Shown: positions 27,306-34,371 of the stretch, in pieces
Numbering within the stretch: the first letter of the stretch is position 1
Layout of the letters: the number at the start of each line of letters is the position of its first letter
DNA from: Methanomassiliicoccus sp.
GTDB taxonomy: Archaea > Thermoplasmatota > Thermoplasmata > Methanomassiliicoccales > Methanomassiliicoccaceae
DNA length: 64,000 nt
Reading direction: 5' to 3'
NCBI GenBank assembly: GCA_033485155.1
Contig: JAWQJJ010000007.1
Coordinates: 1 to 64,000 of the forward strand
The notes under the pieces: model-generated
The model's database searches: none
Told to the model about the DNA's origin: nothing
The model's input: the letters and a program-made list of their open reading frames with translations, nothing else
Translations under genes and position numbers: made by a program

Positions 27306-28385
27306 TCACACCCAGTCGGTGTCCCCAAGCACCAGGTGGCACTTCTGCTCGCCTCCGAGGCTCTGGGCCAAGTGCTCGGCGCCATCGGCGGGGCGGTACA
27401 GCAGCTTCATTTTTCGCTCATCGGGCCCGGGCTGCCTCATCAGGAACCCCGCCCTTCCAAGGTCAGGCATGTAGGGGTGGTCGGTGGGGAGCCATATCTG
27501 CAGGACGTTGGAGCCCTCTTCTCGGCATATCCTCGCTCCTTCCCGTACCAGGGCGGCGATGGTGCTCCCGTCACCGACCTCAGCGACGAGGTCGACGATG
27601 TCCATGAAGGTGCGGTTTTCGATGGTGTAAGGACGGAGAACGATGAAGCCGGCGGTGGACCCCCCGCGGCGGGCGAATAGGGTCCTGAATCTCCCGCCCC
27701 TAGGCTCGGAGTATCTCCATTTCAGGTACGCCTGGTCCCTGCGCAGCACGAAGGTGAAAGCCTCCTGGAAGCGCTTGGTCATGGCTTCGATGTCCTCCGG
27801 GAAGGTCGTGCTCTCGTATACCTCCACACTGGGATCGTCCTTGGCCCGGTTACCCTTCAGAGTCCTGAGGCCGGAGTAGGCAATCTTCTTCAAACCTCCG
27901 AACCTGACGTTCTCGAAGAATCCGTCAGGATTGGCGATCAGCTCGTACTGCCCCATCTCCACCTTGAGGTCTACGAACCCGGCCTTGCGGACCACCTTCT
28001 CTCCCGGCACCGAGGGGAAGGCGAACTCCACTTCCACCCCCCTACGCATATTGAGCTGGTGGAGGACGGGGACGGCGCGCTCCATGGTCCCTCTTCCCCT
28101 TACATCTTCGCGTGTCAGCAGGTCGGAGTACTGGGCTCCTCGGACCTCCTTCCCGTTGATCACCAGATCGGTGGGAAGGCTGGCAGCATGGGCGCACACC
28201 TTCCCCTCACCCACCGCGACCACCTCGTTGGTGTATCCGCGGGGGTTGTCGGCATACCTCCAATTCCAGAACTCGGTCTTGCTTCCCTGGTGAACAAACC
28301 CGGGCCACGGCATGGCTCCGGTCATGAGGTCGACGATGCCCTGGGCATCGTTCCGGTCTGCCGCTCGGATCAAAGTCTCGGTCAT
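27306..28385 (-). CDS. Tandem GNAT-fold acetyltransferase
   Basis: This 359-residue protein appears to hold two GNAT domains. The N-terminal one (about 5-155) has the acetyl-CoA loop TREDVRGRGTMERAV and FAFPSVPGEKVVRKAGF. The C-terminal one (about 185-345) has YLKWRYSEP, FIVLRPY and EEGSNVLQIWLP. The overall shape resembles the Eis-like or DUF-type double GNATs that acetylate amines or protein N-termini; the acceptor is unknown. A structured stretch lies upstream of its ATG. Confidence 0.8.
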   Translation of the reverse strand: MTETLIRAADRNDAQGIVDLMTGAMPWPGFVHQGSKTEFWNWRYADNPRGYTNEVVAVGEGKVCAHAASLPTDLVINGKEVRGAQYSDLLTREDVRGRGTMERAVPVLHQLNMRRGVEVEFAFPSVPGEKVVRKAGFVDLKVEMGQYELIANPDGFFENVRFGGLKKIAYSGLRTLKGNRAKDDPSVEVYESTTFPEDIEAMTKRFQEAFTFVLRRDQAYLKWRYSEPRGGRFRTLFARRGGSTAGFIVLRPYTIENRTFMDIVDLVAEVGDGSTIAALVREGARICREEGSNVLQIWLPTDHPYMPDLGRAGFLMRQPGPDERKMKLLYRPADGAEHLAQSLGGEQKCHLVLGDTDWV

Positions 28386-28632: not shown

Positions 28633-29163
28633 ATGCCGGACATACGTCAGAGAGTGCAGGAGGACCAAGGTATCCTGAAGAAGATCCAGCTGTTCGTCCC
28701 TGGATTCCGGGGCTACCGTCAGAGGGAGGACCTGAGGGACGCCGACCGCATGCTGCGGGATCAGTTGGCGAAGAAACTGTCGCTCCAGCGGAAGCAGGTC
28801 GAGGGAGCCCGCCGGCTGGTGGTCAGCTCCTTCAACTCCAAGGAGCTGGAGCTCATGGGCGGGATCGTCACCGGCTACAAAAAGGTGGAAGGTCTGGTCT
28901 CCCACTCCTCGCCCGGGTACTCCGGCATATCTGCCGACGTCCAGTTCAAGCAGGACGAGATATTCCGGCTTTACGATTATGACGCCTCGATGATCGACGG
29001 GCTGGCATCGATGCAGCAATCCATCGATCAGTTGAAGGCGGCCCTCGCCGCCCAGGACGGCCTGCGGGCCCAAGCGGAGCTCGATCAGCTCAAGGCTCTG
29101 CTCGGCAACTTCGAGGAACAGTTCAAGCGACGCATCAACGTCATTCAGGGAACGGAGGTCTAA
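28633..29163 (+). CDS. Helical partner protein of the SPFH operon
   Basis: This 176-residue, almost wholly helical, charged protein has the N-terminal signature KKIQLFVPGFRGYRQREDLRDADRMLRD (about 16-43) seen in a widespread uncharacterised family that neighbours SPFH genes. It then has heptad-like stretches (about 44-75 and 125-170). There is no signal or membrane helix. It is first in a five-gene run; the next gene starts two bases after its stop. In bacterial relatives of this operon a PspA-like coiled-coil protein holds this slot, so I infer a scaffold or membrane-binding role. Confidence 0.75.
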   Translation: MPDIRQRVQEDQGILKKIQLFVPGFRGYRQREDLRDADRMLRDQLAKKLSLQRKQVEGARRLVVSSFNSKELELMGGIVTGYKKVEGLVSHSSPGYSGISADVQFKQDEIFRLYDYDASMIDGLASMQQSIDQLKAALAAQDGLRAQAELDQLKALLGNFEEQFKRRINVIQGTEV

Positions 29164-29165
29164 AG

Positions 29166-30329
29166 ATGGCAAAGGTAACCGACCCCAGCGGGGGCGGGGG
29201 GCTGAAAGACAGCCTCATCGGCTCGGCCACCTTCAGCTGGGACGATATCGAGAAGCGCGGTAACATCATGTTCCGCGTCCCGCGGCTGATCAGGTACAAT
29301 GACAACATCGTGGTGAGGGAGGATGAGATCGCGGCGTTCTACCGTGATGGCAAGGCGCTTACCTACTTCGACCGTCCCGATCGTTACGCGCTCACCGACA
29401 TCAACGCTCCGATCGTAGGCAGGCTGGTCAAGGCCCTCTCGGGTGTGGTCCAGCAGGCTGAGGTCATATATCTGCAGAAGCGTGCCTTCGACGGTAAGTT
29501 TGGCTCCAAGCAACCATACCAGTTCCGGGACAAGGACTTCGGCGTGGTGAACCTCAGAGTGTTCGGCGAGTTCCGTTACAAGGTCGGACAGCCAGAGAAT
29601 TTCGTCAACCAGTTCGTGGGCACGTTGAACTTCGCCACCTCCGCCGAGGTGGAGGAACGTCTGAAGGAGCAGATGGTCGTTCTTATCTACAACGTGGTCG
29701 GGGAGATGAAGAACCAGGGGATGGGAGTCGCCGACCTGGCCTCCAGCCTCATGAACATTGAGCAGGGAGTGTTGGAGAAAGCCAAGGACCACTTCGACTT
29801 GTACGGGATCACCATCGACAAAGTATCCGGACTGTACATCTCCCTGCCGGACGAGGTCCAGAAGGCGGTGGACACCCGGGCCTCAATGCAGGTGCTGGGC
29901 ACCAACTACATGGGCTACCAGACTGGTCAGGCTATGCGCGAGGCGGCCCAGAATCCCTCGGGCGGGGCCGCCGGTGTCGGCGTAGGCCTCGGGGCCGGTG
30001 TGGGGATGGGGTACACTATGGTCGACCAGATGCGGCAACAGCCGGTCAGCGGCCAACAGCAGCAGGGCGGAGCGGTACCCTTCGGCAATACGGTGAAATG
30101 TCCGAAGTGCGGGGCCATGAACCCCCCCACCAACAAGTTCTGCTCGGAGTGCGGAACCAAGTTCGAGGCCGACAAGAAGTGCCCCAAATGCGGCGCCAAC
30201 GTCCCTGGCGGCTCCAAGTTCTGCCCCGAGTGCGGCAATCCCATGGGCAGCAAGAAGTGCGCCAACTGCGGGGCCGAGGTCAGTGCGGGGACCAAGTTCT
30301 GCCCCGAATGCGGGAAACCCATCCAGTGA
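29166..30329 (+). CDS. SPFH-domain protein with C-terminal zinc ribbons (YdjI-like)
   Basis: This 387-residue protein has an SPFH/virion-core-like domain (about 20-255), a Gly- and Gln-rich low-complexity hinge (about 260-305), then three CxxC...CxxC zinc ribbons (about 309-387, each with CP(K/E)CG or CxNCG pairs). There is no membrane helix, unlike classical stomatins. It resembles Bacillus YdjI, an SPFH protein that gathers at the membrane through zinc-ribbon membrane partners and recruits PspA. The three following genes encode just such zinc-ribbon proteins. RNA-level coupling is implied by the 2-base gap before it and the 9-base gap after. Confidence 0.88.
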   Translation: MAKVTDPSGGGGLKDSLIGSATFSWDDIEKRGNIMFRVPRLIRYNDNIVVREDEIAAFYRDGKALTYFDRPDRYALTDINAPIVGRLVKALSGVVQQAEVIYLQKRAFDGKFGSKQPYQFRDKDFGVVNLRVFGEFRYKVGQPENFVNQFVGTLNFATSAEVEERLKEQMVVLIYNVVGEMKNQGMGVADLASSLMNIEQGVLEKAKDHFDLYGITIDKVSGLYISLPDEVQKAVDTRASMQVLGTNYMGYQTGQAMREAAQNPSGGAAGVGVGLGAGVGMGYTMVDQMRQQPVSGQQQQGGAVPFGNTVKCPKCGAMNPPTNKFCSECGTKFEADKKCPKCGANVPGGSKFCPECGNPMGSKKCANCGAEVSAGTKFCPECGKPIQ

Positions 30330-30338
30330 GGTCCACAG

Positions 30339-31082
30339 ATGGCCCAGGTAAAATGTCCCAAGTGCTCAGCGCCGATGGAGCTTGACTCCGGCACCAAGTT
30401 CGCCAAGTGCAGCTACTGCGGCTCGCTGATCTTCTTTGACCGAACCGGTGCGGGGTTCTATTACGCCATACCCTTCAAGCTCAGCCAGGACGACGCCGTG
30501 GGCACGTTCCGCCGCTGGGCCGGAGGGTCCACCAAGGCCAAGGACCTAGACCGCCTGGCGAACATCACCGCGGTCAAGAAGAAATACTTCCCGGTATACC
30601 TCTTCCGCAGAGATCTCAATGGCAAGGAGGAGGTGATGGTGGAACCGGCCGGCTCCACCATCCTGCCGGGCCTTCACCAGCTCAAGATCCCTGGCGGCGA
30701 TCTCCGTATCTTCGACGACAAGTTCGACACCAACGGGGCGGAGATGGTCAAGCCGGACATCGAGATGCTGCACTATCTGGACAAGCTACCTGGAGCGGGA
30801 AAGGAGCAGGCCTTGGTCTACTTTCCAATTTGGACCATTGACTACAACTTCGGCGGTTCCAGCTATCAGGTGGTGGTGGACGCTTCCTCCTCAGAGGTGT
30901 TCGCGACTTCCTTCCCCACCCGGAGTTCGGCCGCCTACCTGTTGGTGGCGGTGGCCGGGTTCTTCACCTTTCTGGCCCTGGGATTCGTGGCCACGGTCTA
31001 CTTCATACCGGCCCTGATCCTCATGGCAGTGACCGTGGTGGCGGTGTTCCTTACCTCTCTGACGGTGGCAAGGAGGCTTTGA
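30339..31082 (+). CDS. Zinc-ribbon membrane protein of the SPFH operon (1)
   Basis: This 247-residue protein has an N-terminal zinc ribbon (CPKC...CSYCG, about 6-28), a soluble domain with recurring YFPVYLF and VYFPIWTIDYNF strands (about 40-190) and two C-terminal membrane helices (about 199-221 and 223-243). The same plan (zinc ribbon, IPFK...P-x-(Y/F), Y(F)P-x-W) recurs in the next two genes, so they are paralogues. YdjG/YdjH of Bacillus have a comparable zinc ribbon plus membrane anchor. Annotations of such proteins as PriA-like helicases come only from the zinc ribbon. Confidence 0.78.
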   Translation: MAQVKCPKCSAPMELDSGTKFAKCSYCGSLIFFDRTGAGFYYAIPFKLSQDDAVGTFRRWAGGSTKAKDLDRLANITAVKKKYFPVYLFRRDLNGKEEVMVEPAGSTILPGLHQLKIPGGDLRIFDDKFDTNGAEMVKPDIEMLHYLDKLPGAGKEQALVYFPIWTIDYNFGGSSYQVVVDASSSEVFATSFPTRSSAAYLLVAVAGFFTFLALGFVATVYFIPALILMAVTVVAVFLTSLTVARRL

Positions 31083-31083
31083 C

Positions 31084-32085
31084 ATGGGCGATATAACCGT
31101 CGGCCTGAACTGCCCCGCCTGCGGGGGTGCCATCTCCATCAAGGAAGGGGAGAGCGTTGTCAACTGCCAGTACTGCGGCTCCACCCTCTACGCGGAGGGG
31201 GACAAGGGCGTGATGACAATCGCCTTCAAGAACAAGCTGGACCAGGGGTCGGCAGTGGGAGCCGCCCAGGGATGGTGGAGGAAGGGCTTCAAAGCCCGGG
31301 ACCTGCGTACCAAGGGCAAGGTCACCGAGTGTTATCCCATCTACATCCCGTTCTGGAATATCAACACCAGGGTGGCTGGGTGGGTATGCGGCTACGAGGA
31401 GAGGACCCACTCCGACAGCAAGGGGAACACCCACACCGAGAGGGTCTACAAAGAAGAGATGGTCCTCATGGACCTGGTGTTCTCGGAGATCGCCTGCGAC
31501 CCCGGCGATCTCGGGGTTCGATCGCTGCGTAACTTCTCCGGTGAGTCATCGTTCGAGGATTTCGAGATGATCCCGACCTTCGAGTCGACCACCAGCCGGG
31601 ACGATGCGGATGCCCACGCCCGTGATGACGCCATCACCCGCGGGCGGAGCTCCGCCCACGTTCCCCATGTCACCTTCGAACGGCTTCATGCCTTGATCAA
31701 GAGGACATCGATCATCTACTATCCTGTCTGGGTCGTCCGGTACACCTACCAGGATCGCATGTACATCCTGACGGTGGATGGAGTGACGGGGCAGGTGCTC
31801 TCCGGCCGTGCCCCCGGGGACCCCCTCTTCCAGAGCCTCGCGGTCACCGCTGGGACGTCCGTTGGCGGTCTCGCCGCGGCTGGTGGGATCCTCTTCACGG
31901 TGGAGGCCGGTTCGGAGTTCGGGATCGCTGGGGTGATATTCGGCTTCATCATTCTGGGCCTCACTTACGTCTTCTTCCGCCATGGTTCGGAGATCATTGA
32001 AGGAGACTTCCCCGATCGCAGAAAGGCTGTCGATCTCAAGCAGATCGAGGACATCGGCAGGATGATAGGAGGTGCGTACCGATGA
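31084..32085 (+). CDS. Zinc-ribbon membrane protein of the SPFH operon (2)
   Basis: This 333-residue protein has a zinc ribbon (CPAC...CQYCG, about 10-34), a long soluble region with YPIYIPFWNINTRVAGWVCGYEE and IIYYPVWVVRYTYQDRMYILTVDGVTGQVLSG, then two membrane helices (about 254-277 and 280-299) and a charged tail. It starts one base after the previous stop behind AAGGAGG. Its last four bases overlap the next start (ATGA). Paralogous to its neighbours, it probably anchors the SPFH protein at the membrane. Confidence 0.78.
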   Translation: MGDITVGLNCPACGGAISIKEGESVVNCQYCGSTLYAEGDKGVMTIAFKNKLDQGSAVGAAQGWWRKGFKARDLRTKGKVTECYPIYIPFWNINTRVAGWVCGYEERTHSDSKGNTHTERVYKEEMVLMDLVFSEIACDPGDLGVRSLRNFSGESSFEDFEMIPTFESTTSRDDADAHARDDAITRGRSSAHVPHVTFERLHALIKRTSIIYYPVWVVRYTYQDRMYILTVDGVTGQVLSGRAPGDPLFQSLAVTAGTSVGGLAAAGGILFTVEAGSEFGIAGVIFGFIILGLTYVFFRHGSEIIEGDFPDRRKAVDLKQIEDIGRMIGGAYR

Positions 32086-32672
32086 GGATCGTTCAGGTCA
32101 AGTGCCCCAACTGCGGACAGCCTATCTATCAGAAGACCAGGGACGAGATGTTCCTCTGTCAGAACTGCGGAACGATTCATCAACGTGATGCGCAGGGACC
32201 TCACAAGGTCCCCTTTGAGGTCGCCAGTCCCAACCCTGCGGCCGCCGGGCAGCGGTCATACATGCCGTTCTGGCGCCTGCGCTGTGATTTCATCATACGC
32301 TCGAGGAAGGTAGAGGGAGGGTTGCTGCACAAGCTGGCCACTTCGTTCAACGGAGCTGATAACGGCGGCTCCCTGTACATCTTCGTCCCCGCCGCGGACC
32401 TCGACACCGCCACCTTCAGGCGGCTGGCGGTGATGCTGACCTCATCGCCCCCTCGTTACCAGGCCAGGTCGGACTTCGCTGGCATCGAGAGGATACCGAC
32501 TACCATGGGCCAGGATGAGGCGCTGGAGATGGCGGATTTCGTAGCGGTCACCCTGGAAGCGGAGAAGCCGGGCACCCTGCAGTATCTCGATTACGAACTG
32601 AAGGTGCAGGAGGCCAGGCTAATATATCTGCCCGTGATCGGCACCCCCGACGGTCCTTGGCTGGCACTGTAG
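32082..32672 (+). CDS. Zinc-ribbon protein of the SPFH operon (3), no membrane helix
   Basis: This 196-residue protein has a zinc ribbon (CPNC...CQNCG, about 7-28), a KVPFE...YMPFWRLRCDF strand pair and a C-terminal RLIYLPVIG, the same core as the two preceding proteins but without their membrane helices. It starts in an ATGA overlap after AGGAGGTG, so it is coupled to the gene before. It may be the soluble adaptor of the complex. Confidence 0.75.
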   Translation: MRIVQVKCPNCGQPIYQKTRDEMFLCQNCGTIHQRDAQGPHKVPFEVASPNPAAAGQRSYMPFWRLRCDFIIRSRKVEGGLLHKLATSFNGADNGGSLYIFVPAADLDTATFRRLAVMLTSSPPRYQARSDFAGIERIPTTMGQDEALEMADFVAVTLEAEKPGTLQYLDYELKVQEARLIYLPVIGTPDGPWLAL

Positions 32673-32783
32673 ACGAATTAACCTCCGAAATTCGTACCAT
32701 CCGGATAAGAGAAGGGCCCATTAGTCCAACGAGGGCGGTCCAGCGGGCATAGTTTTTAGATGCCCCTCGTTATTTTTATCCCC

Positions 32784-33254
32784 ATGACCGGAGCGGACCT
32801 AGGGCTCATATTCATCATAATCGGAGTGATCATGTTATTGGCCGAGGCGGTGACGCCCGGCGCCTTCCTGGTGGTACCGGCAACGGTACTCATCGTGCTG
32901 GGAGCGCTAGGTATGATTGCGCCGGACCTGTTGCTCAGCATCTGGTCGCCGATCATCGCTGTGCTCATCGGCGTGCCGGTGTTCATGCTCACGGTGAAAG
33001 CGTACCAGAAGCTGTCCCCGCCCATGCCCCCCACCACGACGGTGGCCACATCTCTCATCGGGAAGGAAGGGATTGTGGTGGCCGATATCTGCCCAAACAA
33101 CATCCGGGGGAAGGTCAAGATCGAGAACGACACCTGGAGCGCCACCTCGGTCCGTCCCATCCCTACGGGCTATCGGGTGCGAGTGGTCCACAGCGAAGGC
33201 GTTCATGTGAAGGTCGAGCCCATCGGGGAAGTCCCCGAGGCCGAGTGCAATTAA
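32784..33254 (+). CDS. NfeD-family membrane protein
   Basis: This short NfeD has two to three N-terminal membrane helices (about 5-75) and a C-terminal OB-fold (about 85-145; SLIGKEGIVVADI...GKVKIENDTWSATS). The start is set at ATG 32784 because TATA-like gtttttaga (32752-32759) places initiation near it; an upstream in-frame ATG at 32760 would add eight residues. NfeD proteins pair with SPFH stomatins in most prokaryotes, and the stomatin gene follows 13 bases later. Confidence 0.9.
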   Translation: MTGADLGLIFIIIGVIMLLAEAVTPGAFLVVPATVLIVLGALGMIAPDLLLSIWSPIIAVLIGVPVFMLTVKAYQKLSPPMPPTTTVATSLIGKEGIVVADICPNNIRGKVKIENDTWSATSVRPIPTGYRVRVVHSEGVHVKVEPIGEVPEAECN

Positions 33255-33267
33255 GGAGGAGGAAAAA

Positions 33268-34371
33268 ATGGTCGATGTATTGACGGTGGGACTTCTGGTC
33301 CTGGCCATTGTGGCCGCAGTGCTGATCCTGATAACTGGTATCCGCATCGTGAAACCTTACGAGCAGGCCATCTACATATTGCTCGGAACGTACAAGCGAA
33401 CGCTGAACCCGGGGTTCAACTATGTGTTCCCGTTGATCAGTGAGGTGGTGAAGATCGACCTCCGTACCCAGGTGCTGGAGGTCCCCCGGCAGGAGGTCAT
33501 CACCAAGGACAACTCGCCCACCAACGTGGACGCCATCATCTATACCAAGGTCATCGATCCCAAGAAGGCGTTCTTCCAGGTCACCAACTACCGGGCGGCG
33601 ACCGTCTACCTGGCGCAGACGACCCTTCGTGCCATCATCGGAGACATGGAGCTCGATGAGATCCTGTCGTCCCGGGAGAAGATCAACCTGCGTCTGCGGG
33701 ATATCCTCGATGAGGCGACCGATAAGTGGGGTGTTCGTGTCGAAGCGGTGGAGATAAGGGAGGTCGATCCCGCCCCCAAGGTCAAGCAGGCCATGGAGGA
33801 GCAGACGTCCTCTGAGCGTCTGAGAAGGGCGGCCATTCTGCGGGCCGACGGAGAGAAGCGCGCGGCTATCCTCAGCGCCGAGGGGTCCAAGAGGTCCCGC
33901 ATCCTGCAGGCCGAAGGTGTCCGTCAGTCCAAGGTACTGGAGGCGGAGGGCGAGCGGCTGGCAATCATTCTGCAGAGCCAGGGTGAGGCCCAGAAGCTGC
34001 GCATCCTGTCGGTCGGCGCAAGCCCCCTGGACTCGAAGGCCTTGGCGGTTCTGTCGATGCAGACGATGCAGAGCCTCGGCGCGTCGCAGTCGACCAAGTG
34101 GATCCTGCCGTTCGAGGTCACCAAGGTCCTCGAGGGCATGTCCGAGTTCCTAGGCGTCTCCCGGCAGACCCCTACCCGTGACGTCGCCGACCAGGCCGCC
34201 ATCGAGAAGGCAGTGGGCAAGCCGGAGGACATCCTCGGCCCCATTCCCACGCCTGATGAGCTGCGATCCGAGCTCAAGGGTCTGGAGGACGCCATGGCCA
34301 AGGAGCAGGCTGAGGCCGAGGCCATCGGGGCCCTGGGCCAAGGGAGGCCGGACAAAGAAATGCTGAAGTAA
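33268..34371 (+). CDS. Stomatin/slipin-type SPFH (Band 7) protein
   Basis: This 367-residue protein has an N-terminal membrane anchor (about 5-26), a Band 7 domain (about 28-200; IRIVKPYEQAIYILLGTYKRTLNPGFNYVFP and EVPRQEVITKDN are hallmarks), an Ala/Glu-rich coiled coil (about 175-255) and a variable C-terminus. It should assemble into rings or microdomains on the membrane. A strong ribosome site (AAGGAGGAGG) precedes the ATG. It forms an operon with nfeD. It is a different SPFH subfamily from the zinc-ribbon one upstream. Confidence 0.93.
   Translation: MVDVLTVGLLVLAIVAAVLILITGIRIVKPYEQAIYILLGTYKRTLNPGFNYVFPLISEVVKIDLRTQVLEVPRQEVITKDNSPTNVDAIIYTKVIDPKKAFFQVTNYRAATVYLAQTTLRAIIGDMELDEILSSREKINLRLRDILDEATDKWGVRVEAVEIREVDPAPKVKQAMEEQTSSERLRRAAILRADGEKRAAILSAEGSKRSRILQAEGVRQSKVLEAEGERLAIILQSQGEAQKLRILSVGASPLDSKALAVLSMQTMQSLGASQSTKWILPFEVTKVLEGMSEFLGVSRQTPTRDVADQAAIEKAVGKPEDILGPIPTPDELRSELKGLEDAMAKEQAEAEAIGALGQGRPDKEMLK

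Follow-up and report, generated by a model that had tools for sequence, protein, structure and literature searches.

A five-gene SPFH and zinc-ribbon operon of archaea partly resembling the bacterial PspA–YdjGHI system

PspA/ESCRT-III is regarded as an ancient core of membrane repair, and SPFH proteins in general form oligomeric scaffolds. Among the closest described counterparts of the locus reported here is the PspA–YdjGHI system of Bacillus subtilis, in which an anchorless PF13421 SPFH protein with a C-terminal zinc ribbon (YdjI), a YdjG-type zinc-ribbon protein with a transmembrane segment and a helical protein are encoded in the same operon (PMC8581546, PMC9239133, PMC11237479). YdjI has no membrane anchor and reaches the membrane only together with YdjG/YdjH, of which YdjH is the likely anchor according to two-hybrid data (PMC8581546). 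The gene content of ydjGHI (PMC11237479) is also that of an SPFH-ZnR-TPM operon of Enterococcus, where a neighbouring protein matches the TPM domain (PF04536) at 8e-20. On bacterial plasmids (Vibrio, Paracoccus, Comamonas, Tsukamurella, Enterococcus), there are SPFH genes that have a homologue of gene 4 of the present operon directly downstream and no PspA gene adjoining, and the other partners vary, with TPM in Enterococcus and TelA in Paracoccus. Among archaea, an SPFH protein with a zinc ribbon is likewise found in the Meth_adaptin ESCRT loci, whose defining genes, those for Vps4 and adaptin-like proteins (PMC10936438), are not seen in the five-gene operon.

This operon was found in Methanomassiliicoccus sp., in a window of 64,000 nucleotides (the whole stretch of DNA that was analysed). 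Unlike PspA–YdjGHI, it contains neither PspA nor TPM (YdjH), its helical protein belongs to the LIMLP_15305 family, its SPFH protein carries three zinc ribbons, and it encodes two anchor paralogues, with one ribbon each, and an additional soluble zinc-ribbon protein.

The SPFH and zinc-ribbon proteins

The five genes lie in tandem on the + strand at positions 28633–32672 (Table 1), with gaps of 2, 9 and 1 bases followed by a four-base ATGA overlap, and the open reading frame coordinates agree with the layout given in the initial annotation. As the 19-residue hydropathy maxima of the helical protein (0.78), the SPFH protein (1.32) and the gene 5 product (0.85) show, these three proteins have no membrane helix. 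By contrast, the products of genes 3 and 4 have C-terminal hydrophobic hairpins (residues 196–247 and about 273–300, respectively), so that two of the three zinc-ribbon proteins are membrane-anchored, as first proposed.

Table 1. Coordinates of the five genes and of the features downstream of them (positions in the window)
Feature	Position	Strand	Description
Gene 1	28633..29163	+	176-aa helical protein, archaeal representative of the LIMLP_15305 family (NF047596)
Gene 2	29166..30329	+	SPFH protein of Band_7_1 type (PF13421), YdjI-type, 387 aa
Gene 3	30339..31082	+	N-terminal zinc ribbon, soluble domain and C-terminal hydrophobic hairpin, 247 aa
Gene 4	31084..32085	+	N-terminal zinc ribbon, two alpha/long-beta domains and two C-terminal membrane helices, 333 aa
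Gene 5	32082..32672	+	Soluble zinc-ribbon protein, 196 aa, four-base overlap with gene 4
Stem-loop	32745..32765	+	GGGCAT...ATGCCC between gene 5 and the NfeD gene, with a T-rich stretch after it
NfeD gene	32760..33254	+	NfeD-like protein (PF01957), neighbour outside the conserved core
Stomatin gene	33268..34371	+	Stomatin-type SPFH protein (PF01145), neighbour in Methanomassiliicoccaceae, outside the conserved core

Gene 2 matches PF13421 (Band_7_1), a family also present in B. subtilis, at E=2e-32 (112.9 bits, gathering cut-off 24). Its product lacks an anchor and ends in three CxxC-CxxC zinc ribbons (residues 312–382), which bears out its earlier description as a three-ribbon SPFH protein devoid of a membrane helix and, as judged from the sequence, identifies it as a YdjI-type SPFH protein. 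Like B. subtilis YdjI it has no anchor of its own, and the products of genes 3 and 4 could provide one.

As for the zinc-ribbon proteins, the initial annotation had described three paralogues. Genes 3 and 4 are securely assigned as such by a profile alignment that covers the whole soluble part with the zinc ribbon removed (hhalign E=6e-13), while gene 5 shares the zinc ribbon with them and little that can be demonstrated outside it, and is only probably a third paralogue. A relationship to YdjG and YdjH had also been suggested, and it stands for YdjG. With its zinc ribbon removed, gene 4 matched bacterial SPFH-linked proteins with two zinc ribbons (from Vibrio, Enterococcus, Comamonas, Tsukamurella and Paracoccus) in profile comparisons, with 97.8% probability and E=9e-13, compared with E values of 0.2 to 0.7 for eight column permutations and the reversed profile used as controls. 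The homologue of gene 4 in Enterococcus sits in the SPFH-ZnR-TPM operon mentioned above, which here stands in for B. subtilis YdjG. On this basis gene 4, and gene 3 through gene 4, are assigned as homologues of the bacterial YdjG-type proteins, with which they share the C-terminal membrane segment; having one zinc ribbon each, against two in the bacterial proteins, they are homologues of different architecture rather than strict members of the type. The link to YdjH did not hold, since none of the five proteins matches PF04536 at E<=1.

When genes 1 and 4 were used as single-protein queries, a search of plasmids returned no match; the plasmid relatives of gene 4 surfaced only through reading the genes that adjoin plasmid SPFH genes, and a homologue of gene 1 was found on no plasmid searched. 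Among solved structures gene 4 had no meaningful match, the top-ranked entries being long-strand proteins at very low TM-score. A role in anti-phage defence was rejected too, the PADLOC matches being weak, confined to genes 4 and 5 and limited to the zinc-ribbon stretch.

The helical protein and the conservation of gene order

Gene 1 matches the bacterial LIMLP_15305 family (NF047596), described from Leptospira, over residues 7–170 (E=1e-10), at 41.8 bits, far below the equivalog cut-off of 210 bits. A scan of 63 archaeal gene 1 proteins with the same model matched every one of them (best E=2e-17). The protein has an invariant P-G-x-R-G-Y motif and a conserved GYSG loop. Gene 1 is thus classified by sequence as an archaeal member of the family, a distant relative and not an equivalog. 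The family, for which no function-linked context was found in the literature searched, hereby gains one. A relationship of gene 1 to TelA was also considered and none was found.

The recurrence of the operon in related genomes, expected at the outset, was observed across Thermoplasmatota and Methanomicrobiales. Of the loci fetched, 24 have the complete order 1-2-3-4-5 and 11, chiefly of Methanomicrobiales and DHVE2, have the genes permuted as 3-4-5-[4TM]-1-2, which indicates that the linkage of the genes outlasts rearrangement. Since gene content and order are kept across several families and a second archaeal phylum, the arrangement is not due to chance. Gene 1 lies directly upstream of the SPFH gene in 64 of the 67 named loci with sufficient downstream sequence, with a median gap of 3 nt. 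Among 293 Thermoplasmatota genomes, gene 1 occurs together with the SPFH family in 75, gene 1 only in 8 and the SPFH family only in 13; 74 of 84 gene 1 copies were immediately 5′ of a Band_7_1 SPFH gene. The single scan of a genome collection used a narrow alignment, a broader one being too diverse for it, and is biased to PG[YF]RGYR-bearing sequences. Both genera Methanocorpusculum and Methanomicrobium, of which cultured strains exist, carry the operon.

The core is reduced in Methanomethylophilaceae, where genes 1 and 2 are present and genes 3–5 are not beside them, and therefore the anchors are not obligatory there. Upstream in this family, as judged by eye, are a TPR-looking gene and a zinc-ribbon-bearing gene. 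Where other Thermoplasmatota have a divergent gene 1, the gene after it codes for a coiled-coil/zinc-ribbon protein. This partner may be a very divergent SPFH protein, the comparison with SPFH giving E=0.002 over 183 columns with a probability of only 12%. No convincing copy of the small four-helix membrane protein encoded ahead of gene 1 elsewhere was detected in the source genome.

Possible roles of the operon

The reading that we favour, and consider fairly probable, is that the operon encodes an archaeal version of the SPFH/YdjG membrane scaffold that does without PspA and has the LIMLP_15305-type protein for a dedicated partner. The soluble SPFH protein would assemble into an oligomeric scaffold at the inner face of the membrane and would be held there by the products of genes 3 and 4, anchored by their C-terminal membrane hairpins with the zinc ribbon and alpha/beta domains facing the cytoplasm; the compact helical protein may be the dedicated partner or effector of this scaffold, and gene 5 a soluble zinc-ribbon accessory. 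We infer a physical complex that is recruited to the membrane via genes 3 and 4 and serves membrane integrity or the response to membrane stress. These archaea, some of them without detectable PspA or Snf7, retain the SPFH and zinc-ribbon half of a PspA system, and a different helical protein stands in the position of PspA. Should this protein act on membranes, the constant part would be the SPFH/zinc-ribbon scaffold and not PspA, and the partner would be exchangeable.

The operon might instead encode an SPFH-based protein quality-control or sorting assembly, comparable to HflKC for FtsH, in which the SPFH cage and the zinc ribbons collect clients from the membrane or the cytosol, gene 1 serves as the adaptor for them and membrane stress is not the main cue. 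This reading, which we regard as possible but somewhat unlikely, is consistent with the scaffold-building nature of SPFH proteins, with the coiled-coil/zinc-ribbon gene adjoining the divergent gene 1 and the genes seen upstream in Methanomethylophilaceae, and with the SPFH-coiled-coil-zinc-ribbon protein in an archaeal ESCRT-like locus (PMC10936438). Against it, the loci mapped, whose unlabelled neighbours were identified in part, showed no further gene family in constant association with the operon. A bolder reading, in which bacteria and archaea have an SPFH/YdjG membrane-scaffold module in common and a wholly different effector of the LIMLP_15305 family does the membrane job of PspA/ESCRT-III in archaea, independently of that superfamily, we consider unlikely.

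Quite improbable is a full equivalent of the Bacillus PspA–YdjGHI system, in which the helical protein coats and seals the damaged membrane as PspA does. Gene 1 does occupy the position of the helical partner beside the SPFH gene, PspA_IM30 is missing from the source genome and from all 9 further genomes that carry genes 1 and 2 and is above cut-off in just 3 of the 293 Thermoplasmatota genomes, and Snf7 is missing from the source genome as well. However, PspA is rare in the phylum with or without gene 1, and its absence therefore says little, and two genomes of the same genus carry both gene 1 and PspA. Moreover, kinship of the helical protein with PspA/Vipp1 was not borne out, and gene 1 was rejected as a PspA homologue: PspA_IM30 (PF04012) gave no match at E<=1 in the Pfam search, and the structural model (pLDDT 86.9) shows a compact bundle whose helices are no longer than 35 residues. 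A profile comparison with PspA was also empty, as was its positive control (PspA against PspA, single archaeal sequences), and a fold search run without positive control returned nothing from the PDB at E<=0.001 and neither PspA nor Vipp1 among its best 50. That gene 1 takes the place of PspA is possible only as an analogy.

Directly 3′ of the five genes and on the same strand are an NfeD gene and a stomatin-type SPFH gene, which had been missed in the initial annotation. Translation of the NfeD gene more probably begins at its second ATG (32784). That the five genes and this pair form one seven-gene unit organising lipid domains is very unlikely, since the pair, although it follows immediately and in the same direction in nine mapped loci, is missing next to the five genes in Methanomicrobiales and in the order's other families, and is separated from them by the stem-loop with its T-rich tail. 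The stem-loop, which is only mildly better than shuffles (z -1.3), may represent the end of the five-gene transcript.

Operon layout and conservation of gene order

The coordinates of the five same-strand genes, with their gaps and overlap, agree with the initial annotation. The source genome comprises 2.8 Mb in 15 contigs, and its nearest named relatives belong to Methanomassiliicoccus, which places it as a Methanomassiliicoccaceae-type archaeon within the Thermoplasmatota. Gene 1 encodes a helical protein of 176 residues, gene 2 an SPFH protein matching PF13421 (Band_7_1, the YdjI type; E=2e-32) with three zinc ribbons at its C-terminus, and genes 3, 4 and 5 proteins that each start with one zinc ribbon. 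Hydropathy predicts C-terminal membrane hairpins in the products of genes 3 and 4 only, in line with the earlier claim that two of the three zinc-ribbon proteins are membrane-anchored. NfeD and stomatin-type SPFH genes lie directly downstream, so that two different SPFH systems stand side by side (an adjacency seen in nine mapped loci), and the head-to-head pairing of a GNAT-type gene with gene 1 is kept in Methanomassiliicoccaceae (13 loci listed, some being one genome duplicated).

Coordinates of the operon, its neighbours and related loci (L, locus fetched from another genome or plasmid)
Feature	Position	Strand	Remark
Five-gene operon	window 28633-32672	+	gaps of 2, 9 and 1 bases, then a four-base overlap
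NfeD and stomatin-type SPFH genes	window 32760-34371		
GNAT-type gene	window 27306-28385	-	
Four-helix membrane protein	L124:7602-7973		
Four-helix membrane protein	L149:7640-7984		
Four-helix membrane protein	L060:7992-8369		35 others
TPR-looking and zinc-ribbon genes before genes 1-2, family f2	L066:1147-3616		
SPFH/YdjG-type genes, genome G086	L178:5113-7711		
Paracoccus SPFH locus	L168:536-5254		

Sought across relatives by a scan of the genome collection, the order 1-2-3-4-5 is complete in 24 loci and retained in three families of the order Methanomassiliicoccales, and a permuted order, 3-4-5-(small membrane protein)-1-2, occurs in 11 loci, chiefly of Methanocorpusculum, Methanomicrobium and DHVE2 archaea. 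The linkage thus outlasts rearrangement between two archaeal phyla, which is strong evidence for a joint function of the genes. They are also co-inherited: among 293 Thermoplasmatota genomes, gene 1 is present in 83 and PF13421 in 88, with 75 carrying both, and the gene 4 family occurs in 61, 59 of which have PF13421 (P < 1e-30, Fisher tests, a value that overstates independence because the genomes are related). In these genomes a PF13421 gene directly follows 74 of the 84 gene 1 copies; of the remaining ten, some sit close to the end of a contig and six or seven represent remote gene 1 relatives, and in the copies read the next gene encodes an unannotated protein that carries either a zinc ribbon at its C-terminus or a long coiled-coil stretch.

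Relationship to bacterial SPFH/YdjG-type proteins

Bacterial partners were found by inspecting, on plasmids, the gene that lies 3' of an SPFH gene of PF13421. Those from Vibrio, Enterococcus, Comamonas, Tsukamurella and Paracoccus are proteins of 350-430 residues with a pair of zinc ribbons and a hydrophobic segment at the C-terminus, and the Enterococcus gene order is SPFH-ZnR-TPM, the same gene content as ydjGHI (PMC11237479, PMC8581546). The gene 4 family matched the Vibrio two-zinc-ribbon protein at 98.3%, and after removal of zinc ribbons and membrane parts gene 4 still matched the bacterial proteins at 97.8% probability (E=9e-13, 175 columns), against E values of 0.2 to 0.7 for controls (eight permutations and one reversal). 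For gene 3 there is a match to gene 4 (E=6e-13) and, over a short motif at the C-terminus, one to the profile of the bacterial proteins (6e-8), and gene 5 has no significant similarity to the bacterial proteins outside its zinc ribbon. Judged by sequence, genes 2, 3 and 4 are homologous to the bacterial SPFH/YdjG-type pair because of PF13421 and the profile matches outside the zinc ribbon; the proposed YdjG relationship stands for gene 4 directly and for gene 3 through gene 4. The tie to B. subtilis YdjG itself would run through equivalence of operon and architecture, with Enterococcus as its basis. The Paracoccus SPFH and zinc-ribbon genes come after a TelA (toxic anion resistance) gene and a DUF2927 gene, which puts yet another partner where Bacillus has PspA.

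Gene 1, PspA and the proposed mechanism

Gene 1 belongs to NF047596 (LIMLP_15305), a family named for a Leptospira gene and matched by 63/63 archaeal gene 1 relatives. Its AlphaFold model has five helices, the longest of 35 residues (pLDDT 86.9). Two conserved loops, P-G-x-R-G-Y near residues 23-28 and G-Y-S-G near 95-98, together with D38, R42, D117 and R167, are candidates for contact with gene 2. Gene 1 is not PspA, having no match to PF04012 (PspA_IM30), and its compact model has none in the PDB at E<=0.001. The operon likewise lacks a YdjH counterpart, because the TPM domain is in none of the five proteins.

Neither PF04012 nor Snf7 was found in this genome, and PF04012 is absent from nine other genomes with genes 1-2. 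This would fit a replacement of PspA by gene 1 without proving it: with or without gene 1, few genomes of the phylum have PspA (PF04012 above cut-off in 3/293 Thermoplasmatota genomes), and the two coexist in two genomes of the same genus.

In Bacillus, YdjI is brought to the membrane by YdjG and YdjH (PMC8581546). By analogy gene 2, which has no anchor, would reach the membrane via genes 3 and 4, with gene 1 as its dedicated partner. This is the best supported reading. Its homologies, operon structure and co-inheritance are established, and from them we infer complex formation, membrane recruitment and a role in membrane integrity; the main rival is an SPFH scaffold serving quality control or protein sorting. 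SPFH proteins and zinc-ribbon anchors are of types already described. What is new here is that the helical partner is constant and that PspA and TPM are missing, and a search of open-licence papers returned no account of the archaeal operon or of a gene 1-SPFH link.

Core pair and variants

Genes 1 and 2 are the constant pair of the operon. Genes 3-5 occur in Methanomassiliicoccaceae and two sister families, Methanomicrobiales, DHVE2 and others, and are absent beside genes 1-2 in family f2 (Methanomethylophilaceae). A third element recurs in 38 loci that do not belong to the window's own group: a four-helix membrane protein of ~117 residues with no convincing Pfam family, encoded immediately 5' of gene 1. 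It is not beside gene 1 in the window, and this genome has no convincing copy. One locus (L176) combines a small membrane protein, gene 1, a gene 4-like gene and gene 2 within one operon.

In four loci (L169, L170, L172, L174) a divergent gene 1 is followed by a ~400-residue protein with a coiled coil and a C-terminal zinc ribbon, possibly an SPFH protein that has diverged very far, the similarity not being significant. In an f2 locus (L066), genes 1-2 come after a TPR-looking gene and a gene for a 512-residue protein with a zinc ribbon at its N-terminus; Pfam matches neither of the two. G086, another f2 genome, in which no gene 1 was found, has an SPFH gene and, after it, a YdjG-type gene with two zinc ribbons that looks bacterial and was possibly acquired from bacteria.
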